A DNA stretch of 64,000 nucleotides, from assembly GCA_025937895.1 (NCBI GenBank), contig JAICQL010000012.1:1-64000 (forward strand), read 5' to 3'. The notes under the pieces are model-generated. The model was not told the DNA's origin and ran no database searches. It worked only from the letters and a program-made list of their open reading frames with translations. The stretch comes from Polyangiaceae bacterium (lineage in GTDB: Bacteria; Myxococcota_A; Polyangia; Polyangiales; Polyangiaceae). This document shows, in pieces, positions 12,232-63,292 of this stretch. Within the stretch, counting starts at the first letter, position 1, and each line of letters begins with the position of its first letter. The translations under genes were made by a program, and so were the position numbers.

Positions 12232-13266
12232 TTGTCACCACCCCTCGATTGTCCTTCGCCCTGGTTCCGCCACGGCCGAGCTAGCTGCTTCTCTGCGGCG
12301 CGCCGCCTTGCGGGGCTCAGGCTCGCGTGTTTTGCCGTGTGCTTGGCTCCCGCCCTGTGCTTGGCTTCTTCTGCCTTCGCGCAAGAGCCCGAGCCGGCAG
12401 AGGAGCCGCCGCCGGCGCCCGCTGCTCCGCCGTTGCCCCCGTCCCCTCCGCCTGCTGGCCTCAGCAATCAGGCTCCGGCCACCACCGGCTCCACCGTCGT
12501 GGTGCAGGAGGGTTTTCAGGCGGTCGCGGTGCCCGCTGCCGATAGCAAAGACAGCACCACCTTCAAAATCACGGCGGGTGGCTTTCTCTCCGCGGGTAAC
12601 TCGCGCTCCCTCGCGCTCACGGGCATGGCGGACTACTTTCTGCGCCGCGGAAACAGCCAGTTCGGTGCGCAACTCGCCGCGAACTATGGCCAGGCCGCGG
12701 CCGGGCCCACCGGCACCTTCGAAAAGACGGTGGAGAACTATCAGGCGCGCCTGCGTTATGACCACTTCTTCAGCGGCAGCCTGGCGGGCTTTGCCAGCGT
12801 TCAGGGCCGCAGGGACGAGTTTCAGCAGCTCGATCTGCGCCTGAACTTGGACCCGGGCCTCGCGTATTATTTCGTGGACGAAAAGGATCAGCGGCTGTGG
12901 GCAGAGCTCGGCTATGACCTGCAGCACGACATTCGCCGGCAGGAGTTGGTGGATGCCACGGTGGCCGATCCGCTGGTGGAAGACGTCGAGCGCAGTGAGA
13001 CGCGCCACAACGTCCGCGCCTTCGTCGGCTACGTCAATGAGGTCATGGCGGCGGTGAAATTCAATGCCGGCGTGGAGTACCTGCAGAACGTCCCGGAGAC
13101 GGAGAACGCCCGCATCAACGTCGACCTGGGCCTCACCACCCAGCTGAACACCAGCTTTTCGATCGCCACGACCGTGTCCATCAAGTACGACAACAACCCC
13201 CTGCCGGCGGTCGACAGCACCGACGTGGTGACGGCTCTGAACCTGGTCTACACGCTGAGCCAGTGA
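12232..13266 (+). CDS. DUF481-family outer-membrane protein
   Basis: Signal-like N-terminus then GGFLSAGNSRSLALTGMADYFLRRGNSQ...AELGYDLQHDIRR; start (TTG) uncertain. Confidence 0.72.
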   Translation: MSPPLDCPSPWFRHGRASCFSAARRLAGLRLACFAVCLAPALCLASSAFAQEPEPAEEPPPAPAAPPLPPSPPPAGLSNQAPATTGSTVVVQEGFQAVAVPAADSKDSTTFKITAGGFLSAGNSRSLALTGMADYFLRRGNSQFGAQLAANYGQAAAGPTGTFEKTVENYQARLRYDHFFSGSLAGFASVQGRRDEFQQLDLRLNLDPGLAYYFVDEKDQRLWAELGYDLQHDIRRQELVDATVADPLVEDVERSETRHNVRAFVGYVNEVMAAVKFNAGVEYLQNVPETENARINVDLGLTTQLNTSFSIATTVSIKYDNNPLPAVDSTDVVTALNLVYTLSQ

Positions 13267-58252: not shown

Positions 58253-58437
58253 GATTCTGTTCCCTCTCCCCCTGAGGCCATCCTCGCACTTCGAGCGGTC
58301 GAAGTCTTCTCGACGGTACTCGGGGTGGTCTCATTTCGCCGTGGTCCACTCGGTGGTGTCTTCCAGAGCGGACACTCTGACCCTGGAAAGCCGCGTTGCA
58401 CGCCGTGCGTCACGGGCTATTCCAGGCTGCTCCGGGG

Positions 58438-58454
58438 TGCGTCATCCTGACGCA
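58438..58454. promoter_or_regulatory. Inverted repeat TGCGTCA-TCC-TGACGCA upstream of the RegB-like gene
   Basis: Perfect 7-bp arms; same half-sites recur at 61234-61274. Confidence 0.55.
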
Positions 58455-58617
58455 GGCCCACCGTCGCTGCGAGTGGTACGCTGCGGCGTGGCCCTCGTCG
58501 GTATTTCGGACACTGGTAGCTCGAGCTCGAGTCTCCCGGAACGGAGCACCCGGGAGCTGAATGCGCCGCCAGGGTGGCGCGGCGCTGGGGCCACTACGGG
58601 CGTCGAGGCTGCAGTCA

Positions 58618-59864
58618 TGGCGCGCCTCTCTCCCGGGGCCATGGTGGCCTACCTCACGCACCTGCGCTGGCATGCTGTGGCCGGTCAAGCGGTGGCCATT
58701 GCCGTTGCCGCGTTCGCGATGGATATCGCGCTGCCGCTGCCGGCGTTGTGTGCGTGCGTTGCCGCCCTGGCCGCCTCGAACGTGGCGCTGGCCAGGGTCG
58801 CACGCCACCAGCCGAACGCGGGCAGCGTGTGGATCTCGGGCGCGCTGGCCTTCGACGTGCTGCTGCTGACGATCGAGCTCGGGCTCTCGGGCGGTGCCAG
58901 CAATCCGTTCACCATCTTCTACCTCGTGCCGATCCTGGTGGCAGGCTTGCTCTTGCCCAGGGCCTGGCTGGGCGGCATCACCTTGCTGGCGGTGGCGAGT
59001 CATGCCTGCCTGCTCTCGTGGTCAGCACCCGCGCAGCTCGCCTCGGGGGAGCCACCGAGCTTCGTGGGTCCGTGGCTGGCCTTCCTGTTCCTGGCGTTCT
59101 TCACCGCTCTCATCACGGCGCGTACGGCCGCGGCCCTGCGCTCACGCCACGCGGAGCTCCTGCGCAGGCAGCGGATCGCCTCTCACGCGGAGAAGCTCGC
59201 CTCGTTGAGCACGCTCGCTGCAGGTGCCGCGCACGAGCTCGGCAGCCCGCTCGGCACCATCGCAGTGACCGCCGAGGAGCTGGACGGGCTGATCCTGGAG
59301 GCGCCCGAGGAGGCGATCGAGGACGCGCGGATCATTCGTGAGGAGGCGGCGCGCTGCCGCGAAATCGTGCACCGGATGAATGCGCGCGCGGGTCAGCTGC
59401 TCGGCGAGCTGCCAGAGCGCACGACCACCAGCGCGATCTTGAGCGACCTTCAGGCACAGGCCTCGCCAGCCGAGCGCGCGCGGCTGGTGGTGATGAGTGG
59501 ACCCGACGAAGCGATCGAGTGTCCCACGCGCGGGCTGGTGCGGAGCCTGGGCAATCTGGTCAGCAATGCTCTCCAGGCGAGTGCAGCTACGGGCGCAGAG
59601 GTGCTGGTGTCCGTCCGCAAGGTCGCCGGTCGGGTGCAGTTCGTGGTCGATGATCGGGGCAGCGGCATCCCTGCGGAGGTGCGCTCCAGGCTGGGAGAGC
59701 CGTTCGTGACCACGAAGGCTCCGGGCGAAGGCATGGGACTGGGCCTGTTTCTGGCGCTGGCCTACGCCGAGCTGTGCGCGGGCCGCCTCGAGCTGTCTCC
59801 GCGCGAGGGCGGGGGCACCACCGCCGTGCTGGAGCTGCCATGTCAGGCGAGGATGCAACGATGA
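58618..59864 (+). CDS. RegB/PrrB-type redox sensor histidine kinase
   Basis: GLSGGASNPFTIFYLVPI (GGxxNPF motif), multi-TM, H-box AAGAAHELGSPLGTIAVTAEEL, HATPase. Confidence 0.85.
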
Positions 59865-60397
59865 ACCCAGAGGGCTCGACGTTCCTGTTCGTCGATGACG
59901 ACGAACGCTACATGTCACAGATGAAGCGTGCGTTTGCGCGCCGTGGCTTCACCTGTCACGTCGCCACGAGTGGCGAGGAGGCACTGGTGCTCGCCGCTTC
60001 GTGCGCCTTCAACTATGCCAGCGTCGACCTGCGGATGCCGGGGATGAGTGGGCTGGATGTGGTGCGCGAGCTCGTGCGGCGGGTGCCCGGTATTCATATC
60101 GTGGTGCTGACCGGCTTCGGCAGCATCGCCACCGCCGTGGAGGCCGTACGTCTGGGGGCCAAGCACTACCTCACGAAGCCGGCGGATGCCAACGACCTGC
60201 TCGCCGCGTTTGCACGCACGGAGTCAGCGCGGGTGCCCATTTCCCATGAGGTGCCGTCGCTGGCCCGTGCGGAGTGGGAGCACATCCAGCGGGTCCTGGA
60301 CGATTGCGGCGGAAACATCTCTCAGGCCGCGCGCCTGCTCCGCATCGAGCGCCGCAGCCTGCAGCGAAAGCTCGCCAAGCATCCGGTGCCCAAGTAG
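59861..60397 (+). CDS. RegA/PrrA/ActR-type response regulator
   Basis: FLFVDDDERYMSQMKRAFARRGF; SVDLRMPGMSGLDVV; HTH GGNISQAARLLRIERRSLQRKLAKHP; ATGA overlap with the kinase. Confidence 0.9.
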   Translation: MNPEGSTFLFVDDDERYMSQMKRAFARRGFTCHVATSGEEALVLAASCAFNYASVDLRMPGMSGLDVVRELVRRVPGIHIVVLTGFGSIATAVEAVRLGAKHYLTKPADANDLLAAFARTESARVPISHEVPSLARAEWEHIQRVLDDCGGNISQAARLLRIERRSLQRKLAKHPVPK

Positions 60398-60426
60398 CTC
60401 ACTGGCTCTGCGGCGCCGGGTACCGA

Positions 60427-60732
60427 TCACCCGCCGCGAGCGCCGAGGTGACGCAGGAACAAGAAGCTCCCTCCCGGAACCATCGCGGCCAGCACCGCGA
60501 CCGCTGCCAGGCGGCCCGTCCAGCGCCGCGTGGCGAAGGCGTCCAGCACGGCAGCGACGTAGGCCAGGAAGGCAATGCCATGCAGCGGCCCCACGATGGT
60601 GGTCGCGATGGCCACGTCAAAGACGTGCTTGAGTGGCACGGCGACGCCGACCAGAACGAGCAGAGAAGTACCCTCGATGATCGCGAAGAGCTCGAGGCGG
60701 CGGGGGTTTTGGGTGAGAGCTGTCATTGCCAT
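60427..60732 (-). CDS. DUF3817-type small membrane protein
   Basis: RRLELFAIIEGTSLLVLVGVAVPLKHVF...VGPLHGIAFLAYVAAVLD. Confidence 0.8.
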   Translation of the reverse strand: MAMTALTQNPRRLELFAIIEGTSLLVLVGVAVPLKHVFDVAIATTIVGPLHGIAFLAYVAAVLDAFATRRWTGRLAAVAVLAAMVPGGSFLFLRHLGARGG

Positions 60733-61199
60733 GGAAACCGGGTGAGAGGGCGGCCGTAGGTCAGAAACGGCCAGGGAATCGCCAGCAGGATGAGCACGAT
60801 CGCGGCGAGAATGCCGAGCCCGAGCCGGCGGAATGGTTCGCGCGTTGCATCGTCCGTTCGCCGCGCCCAGACCCACGAGGCGTGAGCGATGGCGGCCGCG
60901 GCCAGCATCGAGAGCGGATGCTGGATGCCGAAGAAGCGGAGCGAAGGGTCACTCCAGGCGGCTCGCAGGCTCTGCCGCGCGATGGCAGCCTGCGGACTGG
61001 CGAAGAAGTACAGCAGCATGCCGAGCAACACCTGCGTGTCGAGCACGCTGACCCAGACGCGCGCACGTGCCGCGTCCCTCTGTGACCAGCTCTTTCCTGA
61101 CGCCCAGGCCCACGCACACCGCGCCCCCACTACGAGCGTGGTGACGACCACCGCCCAGCGAAACCAGGAGTGAAGCCAGAGCAGCAAGGCATGAAGCAT
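60723..61199 (-). CDS. Small multi-pass membrane protein
   Basis: LHALLLWLHSWFRWAVVVTTLVVG...; several TM segments; overlaps the DUF3817 gene. Confidence 0.75.
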   Translation of the reverse strand: MLHALLLWLHSWFRWAVVVTTLVVGARCAWAWASGKSWSQRDAARARVWVSVLDTQVLLGMLLYFFASPQAAIARQSLRAAWSDPSLRFFGIQHPLSMLAAAAIAHASWVWARRTDDATREPFRRLGLGILAAIVLILLAIPWPFLTYGRPLTRFPWQ

Positions 61200-61233
61200 C
61201 ACTGGCAGTCTAGATGCGAGGAGCCTCCACCGC

Positions 61234-61274
61234 CTGCGTTCGATTGACGCAGGGGGCTGCGTCACCACGACGCA
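61234..61274. promoter_or_regulatory. Cluster of interleaved TGCGTCA/TGACGCA inverted repeats in a divergent promoter
   Basis: CTGCGTTCGATTGACGCAGGGGGCTGCGTCACCACGACGCA. Confidence 0.6.
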
Positions 61275-61342
61275 GGGCAACGCGCGTGAGGCGCCCTACG
61301 CTCTGACTTCTGTCTCACTCCTGCGATGGACGGTGACTGACG

Positions 61343-62293
61343 ATGTTCTTGCTGCTGATCCTGCTGTTCTGTGGCTGCTCACGGCAGCGCCCCGAGCCGG
61401 AGTTGCACGGTGGGCTGCCAGCCCGTCTCTCCGAGCTCGACCTGTACTCCGACCTGCACGCGGGCAGCGTGGTGGCGGACGTGCGGCCCTACGAGCCCAC
61501 CTTCAGCTTGTGGAGCGACGGAGCTGCCAAGCGCCGATGGATCCGTCTGCCAGTAGGCGAGGCCATCGACACCTCGGACATGGATGCGTGGCGCTTTCCG
61601 GCGGGGACCGAGCTCTTCAAGGAGTTCTCGGTGGCGGGCAAGCGCATCGAGACGCGAGTCTTGCGCAAGGTGAGCCCGGAGGACGCCGGCTGGGCGGCAA
61701 TGAGCTACGCCTGGAACGACGCCCAGGACGAGGCCGTTGCCGCGCCGGACGGCGCCGCCGACGCACTCGGGACCCAGCACGACATACCGTCAGCGCGCAC
61801 CTGCATGATGTGCCACGGCGGGCGCCGTGAGCGCGTCCTCGGCTTCGGAGCAATCCAGCTCGCCCACCCGGCAAACTCAGAGAGCGACGTCACCCTCGAA
61901 CGCCTCACCCTAGAGCGCCGCCTCTCGCATGAGCCGCGAGCGCCGATGGCTCTCGCAGGCCCACCCGAAGACGTGGCCGCAGTGGGCTACCTCCACGCCA
62001 ACTGCGGCCACTGCCACGACGGAGGCAGGCCGCCGCAGCCGCAGCCTCTTCGTCCACCCACGTACGTGGACTTCAGCCTGCGGGTTCAGGATCTGTCCTC
62101 CGTGCAGGCCACCCGAGCACACGCAACCGCCCGGCTGCTCGCGCTGGGCCAGCCTGCCACCCACCACCTCATCCTCCGGCGCATGACCACCCCCGGCGGA
62201 CCGTTGCTGCGCCGGATGCCACCTCTCGCCACGGAGATCATCGACGATGAGGGGCTGAGCCTCGTGCGGGAGTGGCTGCAGCGCGTGCAGTGA
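61343..62293 (+). CDS. Diheme c-type cytochrome-like lipoprotein
   Basis: Lipobox LLFCGC; two heme motifs CMMCH and CGHCH. Confidence 0.8.
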   Translation: MFLLLILLFCGCSRQRPEPELHGGLPARLSELDLYSDLHAGSVVADVRPYEPTFSLWSDGAAKRRWIRLPVGEAIDTSDMDAWRFPAGTELFKEFSVAGKRIETRVLRKVSPEDAGWAAMSYAWNDAQDEAVAAPDGAADALGTQHDIPSARTCMMCHGGRRERVLGFGAIQLAHPANSESDVTLERLTLERRLSHEPRAPMALAGPPEDVAAVGYLHANCGHCHDGGRPPQPQPLRPPTYVDFSLRVQDLSSVQATRAHATARLLALGQPATHHLILRRMTTPGGPLLRRMPPLATEIIDDEGLSLVREWLQRVQ

Positions 62294-62952: not shown

Positions 62953-63150
62953 GTGTCCGCGCCCCGCACGCCGTGCCCGTCTGACGATACACTGGCGGCT
63001 TTCCTTCTCGCGAGTGACGCCGCTGCGGCCTCGGAAGAGTTCGAGCTCGAAGGCGTGATCGGCCGGGGAGGGATGGGCAGTGTGTGGCGTGCTCGCGACC
63101 GCCGTACCGGGCAGCTGGTGGCGCTCCACCTGCGCTGGGCCGTTGCCACC
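62953..63150 (+). pseudogene. N-terminal remnant of a Ser/Thr protein kinase
   Basis: EFELEGVIGRGGMGSVWRARDRRTGQLVAL then kinase similarity is lost. Confidence 0.45.
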
Positions 63151-63292
63151 GCGCGCGATAGCCTCGGAGCGCTCGAGTTCAGGGGCCCGCCCCGGCAGAT
63201 TGAGCGACGTTGCTCGGCCTGGCACAACCAGGCTGCTGGCGGCGCTTCGGTGGGGCTTGAAGAGCGCAGAAAAAGCAGGAAGAACGGGGGGC

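Follow-up and report, generated by a model that had tools for sequence, protein, structure and literature searches.

A RegBA-type pair next to membrane-protein and cytochrome genes

The window (the whole stretch of 64,000 nucleotides analyzed here, from a Polyangiaceae bacterium) contains adjoining genes for a sensor kinase and a response regulator of the RegBA type, followed by two divergent units: a leftward one encoding two membrane proteins and a rightward gene for a diheme cytochrome-like lipoprotein (Table 1). The kinase was best matched by the NCBIfam family ActS/PrrB/RegB (NF033792; E = 5.2e-69), with a score of 233 bits where the equivalog cut-off is 350 bits; it is therefore of RegB type but falls outside the equivalog curated for proteobacteria. 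The quinone-binding GGxxNPF motif of the membrane domain is present as GGASNPF; the motif is invariant in this protein and in four of the five aligned RegBs shown in alignment A1, throughout which the H-box (AAHELGSPLGT) and the redox Cys290 (ERCR/ARCR context) are also invariant. In the regulator, the receiver is accompanied by a C-terminal Fis-type HTH_8 domain alone and the gene adjoins regB, as is expected of a RegA/PrrA/ActR response regulator. Its best match was ActR/PrrA/RegA (NF033791; E = 1.8e-48), with 165 bits again under the equivalog cut-off (250 bits). As glutamate replaces the histidine of the canonical recognition helix (RIERRSLQRKL as opposed to x-[ILMV]-H-R-R-[ST]-LQR), the protein was filed as a RegA-type variant. 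Among solved proteins, a RegA-like one of Burkholderia type (3rqi) comes closest, and the nearest relatives are Polyangiales (‘Myxococcales bacterium 68-20’, RegA 82% identical; Labilithrix, 76%). A second regBA pair is encoded elsewhere in the genome (contig C392, 10703-11233; locus L075), with a helix of the canonical His type (GMHRRTLQHKL).

The HSWxRW protein of the leftward unit had no match in Pfam or NCBIfam; it represents an unnamed family kept together with DUF3817 proteins and RegA boxes across Polyangiales and Myxococcus. The cytochrome aligned with nearly the whole TIGR03806 model (E = 1.6e-36), but its 126 bits compare with a cut-off of 313, making it similar to the SO2930 family without being a member. 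Its CxxCH motifs and the lipobox-like cysteine are conserved in alignment A2. Further along the window, positions 62953-63200 resemble the beginning of a Ser/Thr protein kinase, cut short ahead of a gene that looks glycosidase-like, and may be a gene remnant.

Table 1. Genes, candidate RegA boxes and −10-like hexamers at the regBA locus.
Feature	Position	Strand	Remarks
RegA box 1, TGCGTCATCCTGACGCA	58438..58454		regB promoter; perfect TGCGTC-N5-GACGCA match
−10-like hexamer TACGCT	58477..58482	+	22 nt after box 1
regB, RegB/PrrB/ActS-type sensor kinase	58488..59864	+	HisKA + HATPase_c
regA, RegA/PrrA/ActR-type response regulator	59840..60397	+	Response_reg + HTH_8
DUF3817 membrane protein, second gene of leftward unit	60427..60729	−	PF12823 (E = 1.4e-20); TIGR03954
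HSWxRW integral membrane protein, leftward unit	60723..61199	−	ATG at 61199
−10-like hexamer TAGACT, read leftward	61207..61212	−	22 nt from box 2; 7 nt before ATG 61199
RegA box 2, TGCGTCAATCGAACGCA, read leftward	61235..61251		membrane-protein unit promoter; one mismatch
RegA box 3, TGCGTCACCACGACGCA	61258..61274		cytochrome gene promoter; perfect match
−10-like hexamer TACGCT	61297..61302	+	22 nt after box 3
Diheme c-type cytochrome-like lipoprotein	61343..62293	+	two CxxCH; resembles SO2930 family

Three palindromes at a constant distance from a −10-like hexamer

An original prediction, made from the letters of the window, had proposed inverted repeats of TGCGTCA and TGACGCA at the regB and cytochrome promoters as RegA sites. 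All sequences it quoted were found where it had placed them, and the unit is to be redrawn: instead of TGCGTCA-N2..5-TGACGCA, the candidate RegA operator is a 17-bp palindrome, TGCGTC-N5-GACGCA (6 + 5 + 6), whose five-base spacer separates 6-bp half-sites rather than 7-mers, and which is present in three copies. Likewise, the 41-bp run described for the divergent promoter exists, but it consists of two complete 17-bp boxes and not of four alternating half-sites; these (boxes 2 and 3) lie 6 bp apart, each facing one of the two divergent genes. The additional TGCGTCA at 58406, which it had listed with them, lacks a partner half-site; its membership in the array was rejected for this reason, and it is probably a chance occurrence.

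Exactly 22 nt beyond each of boxes 1, 2 and 3 lies a TAnnnT hexamer (TACGCT, TAGACT and TACGCT, respectively; the composite match of box, N22 and TAnnnT for box 2 spans 61207-61251 on the minus strand). The same offset stood out among the boxes of relatives: of 89 oriented flanks, 17 had TAnnnT at offset 22, compared with zero to four at any other offset. When the transcription start is inferred by placing TAnnnT at −12 to −7, the box occupies −51 to −35 (centre about −43), and no −35-like (TTGACA-like) hexamer was found past the boxes. Class II activator-dependent promoters have the site of the activator at about −41, together with a −10 and no −35 element. The start codons of regB (GTG 58488) and of the membrane-protein gene follow the hexamer after only 5–7 nt, so that both mRNAs are expected to have little or no leader; for the cytochrome mRNA, a leader of about 33 nt is predicted. 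An ATG at 58617 is also in frame for regB; the start is probably the GTG, and the GTG start pattern recurs at loci L061, L155/L237 and L235.

The composite element is rare and lies outside genes

On its own, the 7-mer TGCGTCA shows no enrichment in the window (11 occurrences versus 12.0 expected). Its inverted pair TGCGTCA-N0..12-TGACGCA, in contrast, occurs a single time in the genome (8.57 Mb, about 92% complete, 7.7% contamination), at the regB promoter. The shorter GCGTC-N5-GACGC is found at 19 places, two of which are the regB and cytochrome promoters, most of the others that were checked being coding. Perfect TGCGTC-N5-GACGCA sites number three in the whole genome; two belong to the window, and the third (C220:13356) lies 22 bp past a gene end, without a −10 at N22. 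No perfect box was found beside the second regBA pair on contig C392. With N22-TAnnnT appended and up to one mismatch allowed, the pattern occurs at three places in the genome, namely boxes 1–3; permitting two mismatches added three further, unconvincing places. The loose form TGCGNC-N5-GNCGCA is not enriched in this genome (39 matches versus 43 in the reversed control), and its matches are mostly coding, with GC cores. Over 59 genomes, the loose box combined with the −10 gave 37 matches and no excess over a reversed control whose composition was poorly matched; only local clustering, the spacer and coding DNA serve as informative controls.

These latter controls were applied to 155 regBA loci of relatives, retained once near-copies had been removed, with genes called by a home-made codon-usage finder. 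Perfect TGCG-N-C-N5-G-N-CGCA boxes were found 73 times in wholly non-coding DNA (302 kb) versus eight times in coding DNA (1.35 Mb). Equal frequency inside genes, which the original prediction had named as speaking against it, was thus not seen: the motif is about 40-fold enriched outside them. In non-coding DNA, N5 yielded the 73 boxes and every other spacer from 0 to 15 between zero and four; in coding DNA, N5 was not outstanding. The symmetrised core of the boxes reads A/G-A/T-N-T/A-T/C. A perfect box is present in 55 of the 155 loci, which come from several phyla. His-helix loci account for 42 of these (out of 140) and Glu- or Gln-helix loci for 13 (out of 14); the remaining loci use degenerate boxes or none.

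The box accompanies the same genes in relatives

In relatives, the box recurs at regB, at the diheme cytochrome, at the HSWxRW membrane protein and at DUF3817, even where these are unlinked from regBA. Positions orthologous to that of box 1 carry a box in L061, L068, L235 and the Myxococcus loci L157/L160; boxes homologous to box 2 are present in L235 (position 7986) and L311; and a counterpart of box 3 precedes cytochrome homologues in Myxococcus and Labilithrix (G002:C428). HSWxRW homologues adjoin a RegA box in L155, L235, L157 and L311. The arrangement varies. In the window, regBA is followed by the membrane-protein/DUF3817 unit divergent from the cytochrome, with one box each. In L155/L237, the cytochrome is divergent from regB and both share one box (one mismatch), with N22-TAnnnT on both sides. 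Myxococcus and Pyxidicoccus have a box at regB and a second one (N22-TAGGGT) before a cytochrome-membrane protein operon directly after regA, and L235 (genome G145) has boxes at regB and at the membrane protein with DUF3817.

Whole-genome scans of ten relatives yielded 0–5 sites of TGCGTC-N5-GACGCA per genome. G002 has only two perfect sites, one at regB and the other on a different contig, immediately ahead of a cytochrome homologue (59% identity). G025 likewise has only two, one at regB and one 16 kb from it, immediately ahead of the membrane protein with DUF3817. The only two of a Myxococcus genome of 9.1 Mb (G496) mark regB and the cytochrome operon.

One base of the candidate operator tracks one residue of the recognition helix

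The variable base of the operator is the fifth of each half-site (±4, when the G at the second position of the box is −7). At the boxes of RegAs with a His helix (x-I-H-R-R), the two bases were AG in 34 cases, AA in eight, GG in six, AT in four, CG in one and TT in none; at those of Glu/Gln-helix RegAs, they were TT in 18 cases, GT in one and AT in one (Fisher p 3e-15, uncorrected for descent). The RIE/RIQ RegAs form one supported clade, on which the association mostly rests. Outside it, A/T boxes accompany the single GLQ regulator (L241) and two of three RMH loci, which gives partial independent support to the covariation. For a test of independent pairs, three pairs could be used; each agreed with the association or was neutral (p at least 0.25), so that the covariation is not phylogenetically proven. 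A phylum-wide search with the HTH domain returned no new independent case of a Glu/Gln helix among the sequences fetched. Paralogous regBA pairs keep different boxes within one genome: RIE with TT and GIH with AG in G002, and RIE with TT and RMH with AA in G145.

In Fis, Arg85 reads the G at ±7, and Asn84 touches ±4 and discriminates against one thymine there (PMC4784862). An ungapped alignment places the glutamate of the window RegA on residue 84 and the next arginine on residue 85 (at a weak E-value of 0.79). There is a slightly better than even case that the RegA branch comprising the window, Labilithrix-like and Myxococcus/Pyxidicoccus proteins has switched its DNA specificity. Histidine would have been exchanged for Glu/Gln at the equivalent of Fis Asn84, and glycine for arginine two residues before, with operators changing in step from TGCGRC-N5-GYCGCA to TGCGTC-N5-GACGCA. 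Such a regulator would be insulated from the second RegBA pair, and a global redox regulator would have become a local one for the diheme cytochrome/membrane-protein module.

Proposed mode of regulation and its alternatives

The rarity of the boxes, their fixed geometry, their recurrence at the same genes in relatives and their covariation with the helix strongly support the original prediction of candidate RegA sites, of autoregulation of regBA and of control over a neighbouring redox gene. We infer that the three palindromes are operators of the RegA encoded between them, mediating autoregulation of regBA and local control of an electron-transfer module, probably by activation from a class II position; the probability of this reading is put at about 0.87. 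A RegA dimer would read TGCGTC-N5-GACGCA via its Fis-type helix-turn-helix and, at about −51 to −35, would adjoin RNA polymerase on a promoter that has a −10 but no recognisable −35 region, where it would most likely activate transcription. Box 1 would serve the autoregulation of regBA, consistent with its position at the regB promoter and its recurrence at regB in relatives; boxes 2 and 3 would serve the divergent units, the membrane protein with DUF3817 and the cytochrome. RegB, with its quinone-binding motif and redox cysteine, would supply the redox signal. That the boxes are RegA operators is proposed with high confidence; activation is proposed with moderate confidence.

Autoregulation may instead be negative, since in published systems RegA/PrrA can repress its own kinase gene: such negative autoregulation is reported for R. 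sphaeroides, and for Brucella it has been suggested (PMC5435760). Together with the fact that the box abuts the footprint of RNA polymerase, this would fit RegA boxes that act as repressor operators, with negative feedback on regB and a module repressed under aerobic or oxidised conditions. This arrangement is rather unlikely, given that the box does not cover the −10 region but keeps a constant distance upstream of it and is followed by no −35 hexamer. The constant 22-nt spacing is what polymerase contact would demand, whereas repressors tolerate variable positions; in At. ferrooxidans, too, the place where RegA binds is upstream of that of the polymerase (PMC5506826).

As RegA autoregulation is deduced from the position of the box, the box could instead belong to another transcription factor that controls both regBA and the cytochrome module, RegA being merely a target. 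This is improbable: boxes in the same frame cluster at regBA operons in 55 of 155 loci from several phyla, the base at ±4 shifts with the RegA helix and differs between paralogous pairs in one genome, and the frame equals the published RegR/RegA frame (PMC5506826). Chance palindromes in GC-rich intergenic DNA, or terminator or hairpin sequences, would suit the chance frequency of the 7-mer and of the loose box but can practically be dismissed, as the box with its −10 is unique genome-wide, spacer-specific and kept at orthologous genes including unlinked ones. A further reservation about the preferred reading is that the second RegBA pair could cross-bind the boxes.

Relation to known RegA-type operators

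Published motifs for RegR (GNGRCRTTNNGNCGC), RegA (SSGNVRDNHYSNCSS) and PrrA (YSCGGC(5)GWCRMA) have been called degenerate and dissimilar (PMC5506826); the RegR consensus given in the original prediction is quoted identically there. The claimed fit to this consensus holds for the 15-bp frame GNGNC-N5-GNCGC, with two departures: a single core base, and the fourth position, where the consensus has R. In terms of GNGRC-N5-GNCGC, frame and spacing are present and the R position is T in boxes 1–3, a clade-specific change of the whole Glu/Gln-helix RegA clade and not noise. The Bradyrhizobium RegR box (sites in PMC4064962) has this frame and the DNA-binding family in common with the window boxes, which differ from it by the T for A/G at the fourth consensus base, the outer T/A pair, near-perfect symmetry and fixed spacing. 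The Rhodobacter RegA/PrrA sites (GCG inverted repeats with variable spacer) likewise share the inverted GCG repeat, the Fis-type HTH and respiratory and electron-transport targets; they are, however, described as degenerate and serve a global regulon, whereas the consensus of the window group is tight and its regulon apparently tiny and local (1–5 perfect sites per genome). For R. sphaeroides PrrA, ChIP-seq gave no strong consensus (PMC4263372), and for At. ferrooxidans RegA no motif was found (PMC5506826); spacers of 0–10 have been used in motif searches (PMC5435760). ChIP sites of R. capsulatus, such as GCGACCGTTCGTCGC before ccoN, have the frame in common with the window boxes (PMC5359404). 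E. coli Fis operators (15-bp core; PMC4784862) resemble RegA boxes in the HTH_8 fold family of their protein, the G at ±7 and the discriminated base at ±4, but Fis reads poorly related sequences mainly by shape, whereas in RegA boxes at least 10 bases are invariant, and RegA, unlike Fis, is a phosphorylation-controlled response regulator. For myxobacterial RegBA, the only literature found was one genomic survey, which lists two PrrA-family regulators per Myxococcus genome (PMC7694542).

What is new here is a tight operator of fixed geometry in this group, a tiny local target set in the clade and a probable specificity switch. Regulons of RegA/PrrA have needed experiments, since their operators were described as degenerate and difficult to predict; with a tight 17-bp palindrome and a fixed spacing to the −10, targets in this group become readable from sequence. 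One operator base that tracks one helix residue gives Fis-type response regulators a recognition rule that can be tested, and offers a natural example of the insulation of paralogues. In addition, an uncharacterised diheme cytochrome and two orphan membrane-protein families would be tied to redox control in myxobacteria.

Boxes of other RegA clades

In other RegA clades, boxes precede MbnP (TIGR04052, equivalog cut-off passed) in operons of the MbnP-MbnH-regBA type, YtkA-like proteins, and a multiheme cytochrome that opens a complex resembling alternative complex III. Periplasmic electron transfer and copper proteins are the common theme of the boxed genes, and the operons with MbnP suggest that RegBA controls MbnPH in some relatives. 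L069 (G018) and L083 (G058) have the RegA box before genes for copper-binding MbnP, the order in L069 being MbnP, the diheme enzyme MbnH, others, regB and regA. In L241 (G132), an intermediate type of box, TGCGACAATTTGACGCA, is found some 653 bp past the regA start; it precedes a multiheme cytochrome and a large iron-sulfur/molybdopterin-like protein, with likeness to subunits of alternative complex III. L088 (G019) has two more boxes (positions 12267 and 12346), separated by about 80 bp within a single intergenic region that is 5 kb away from regA.
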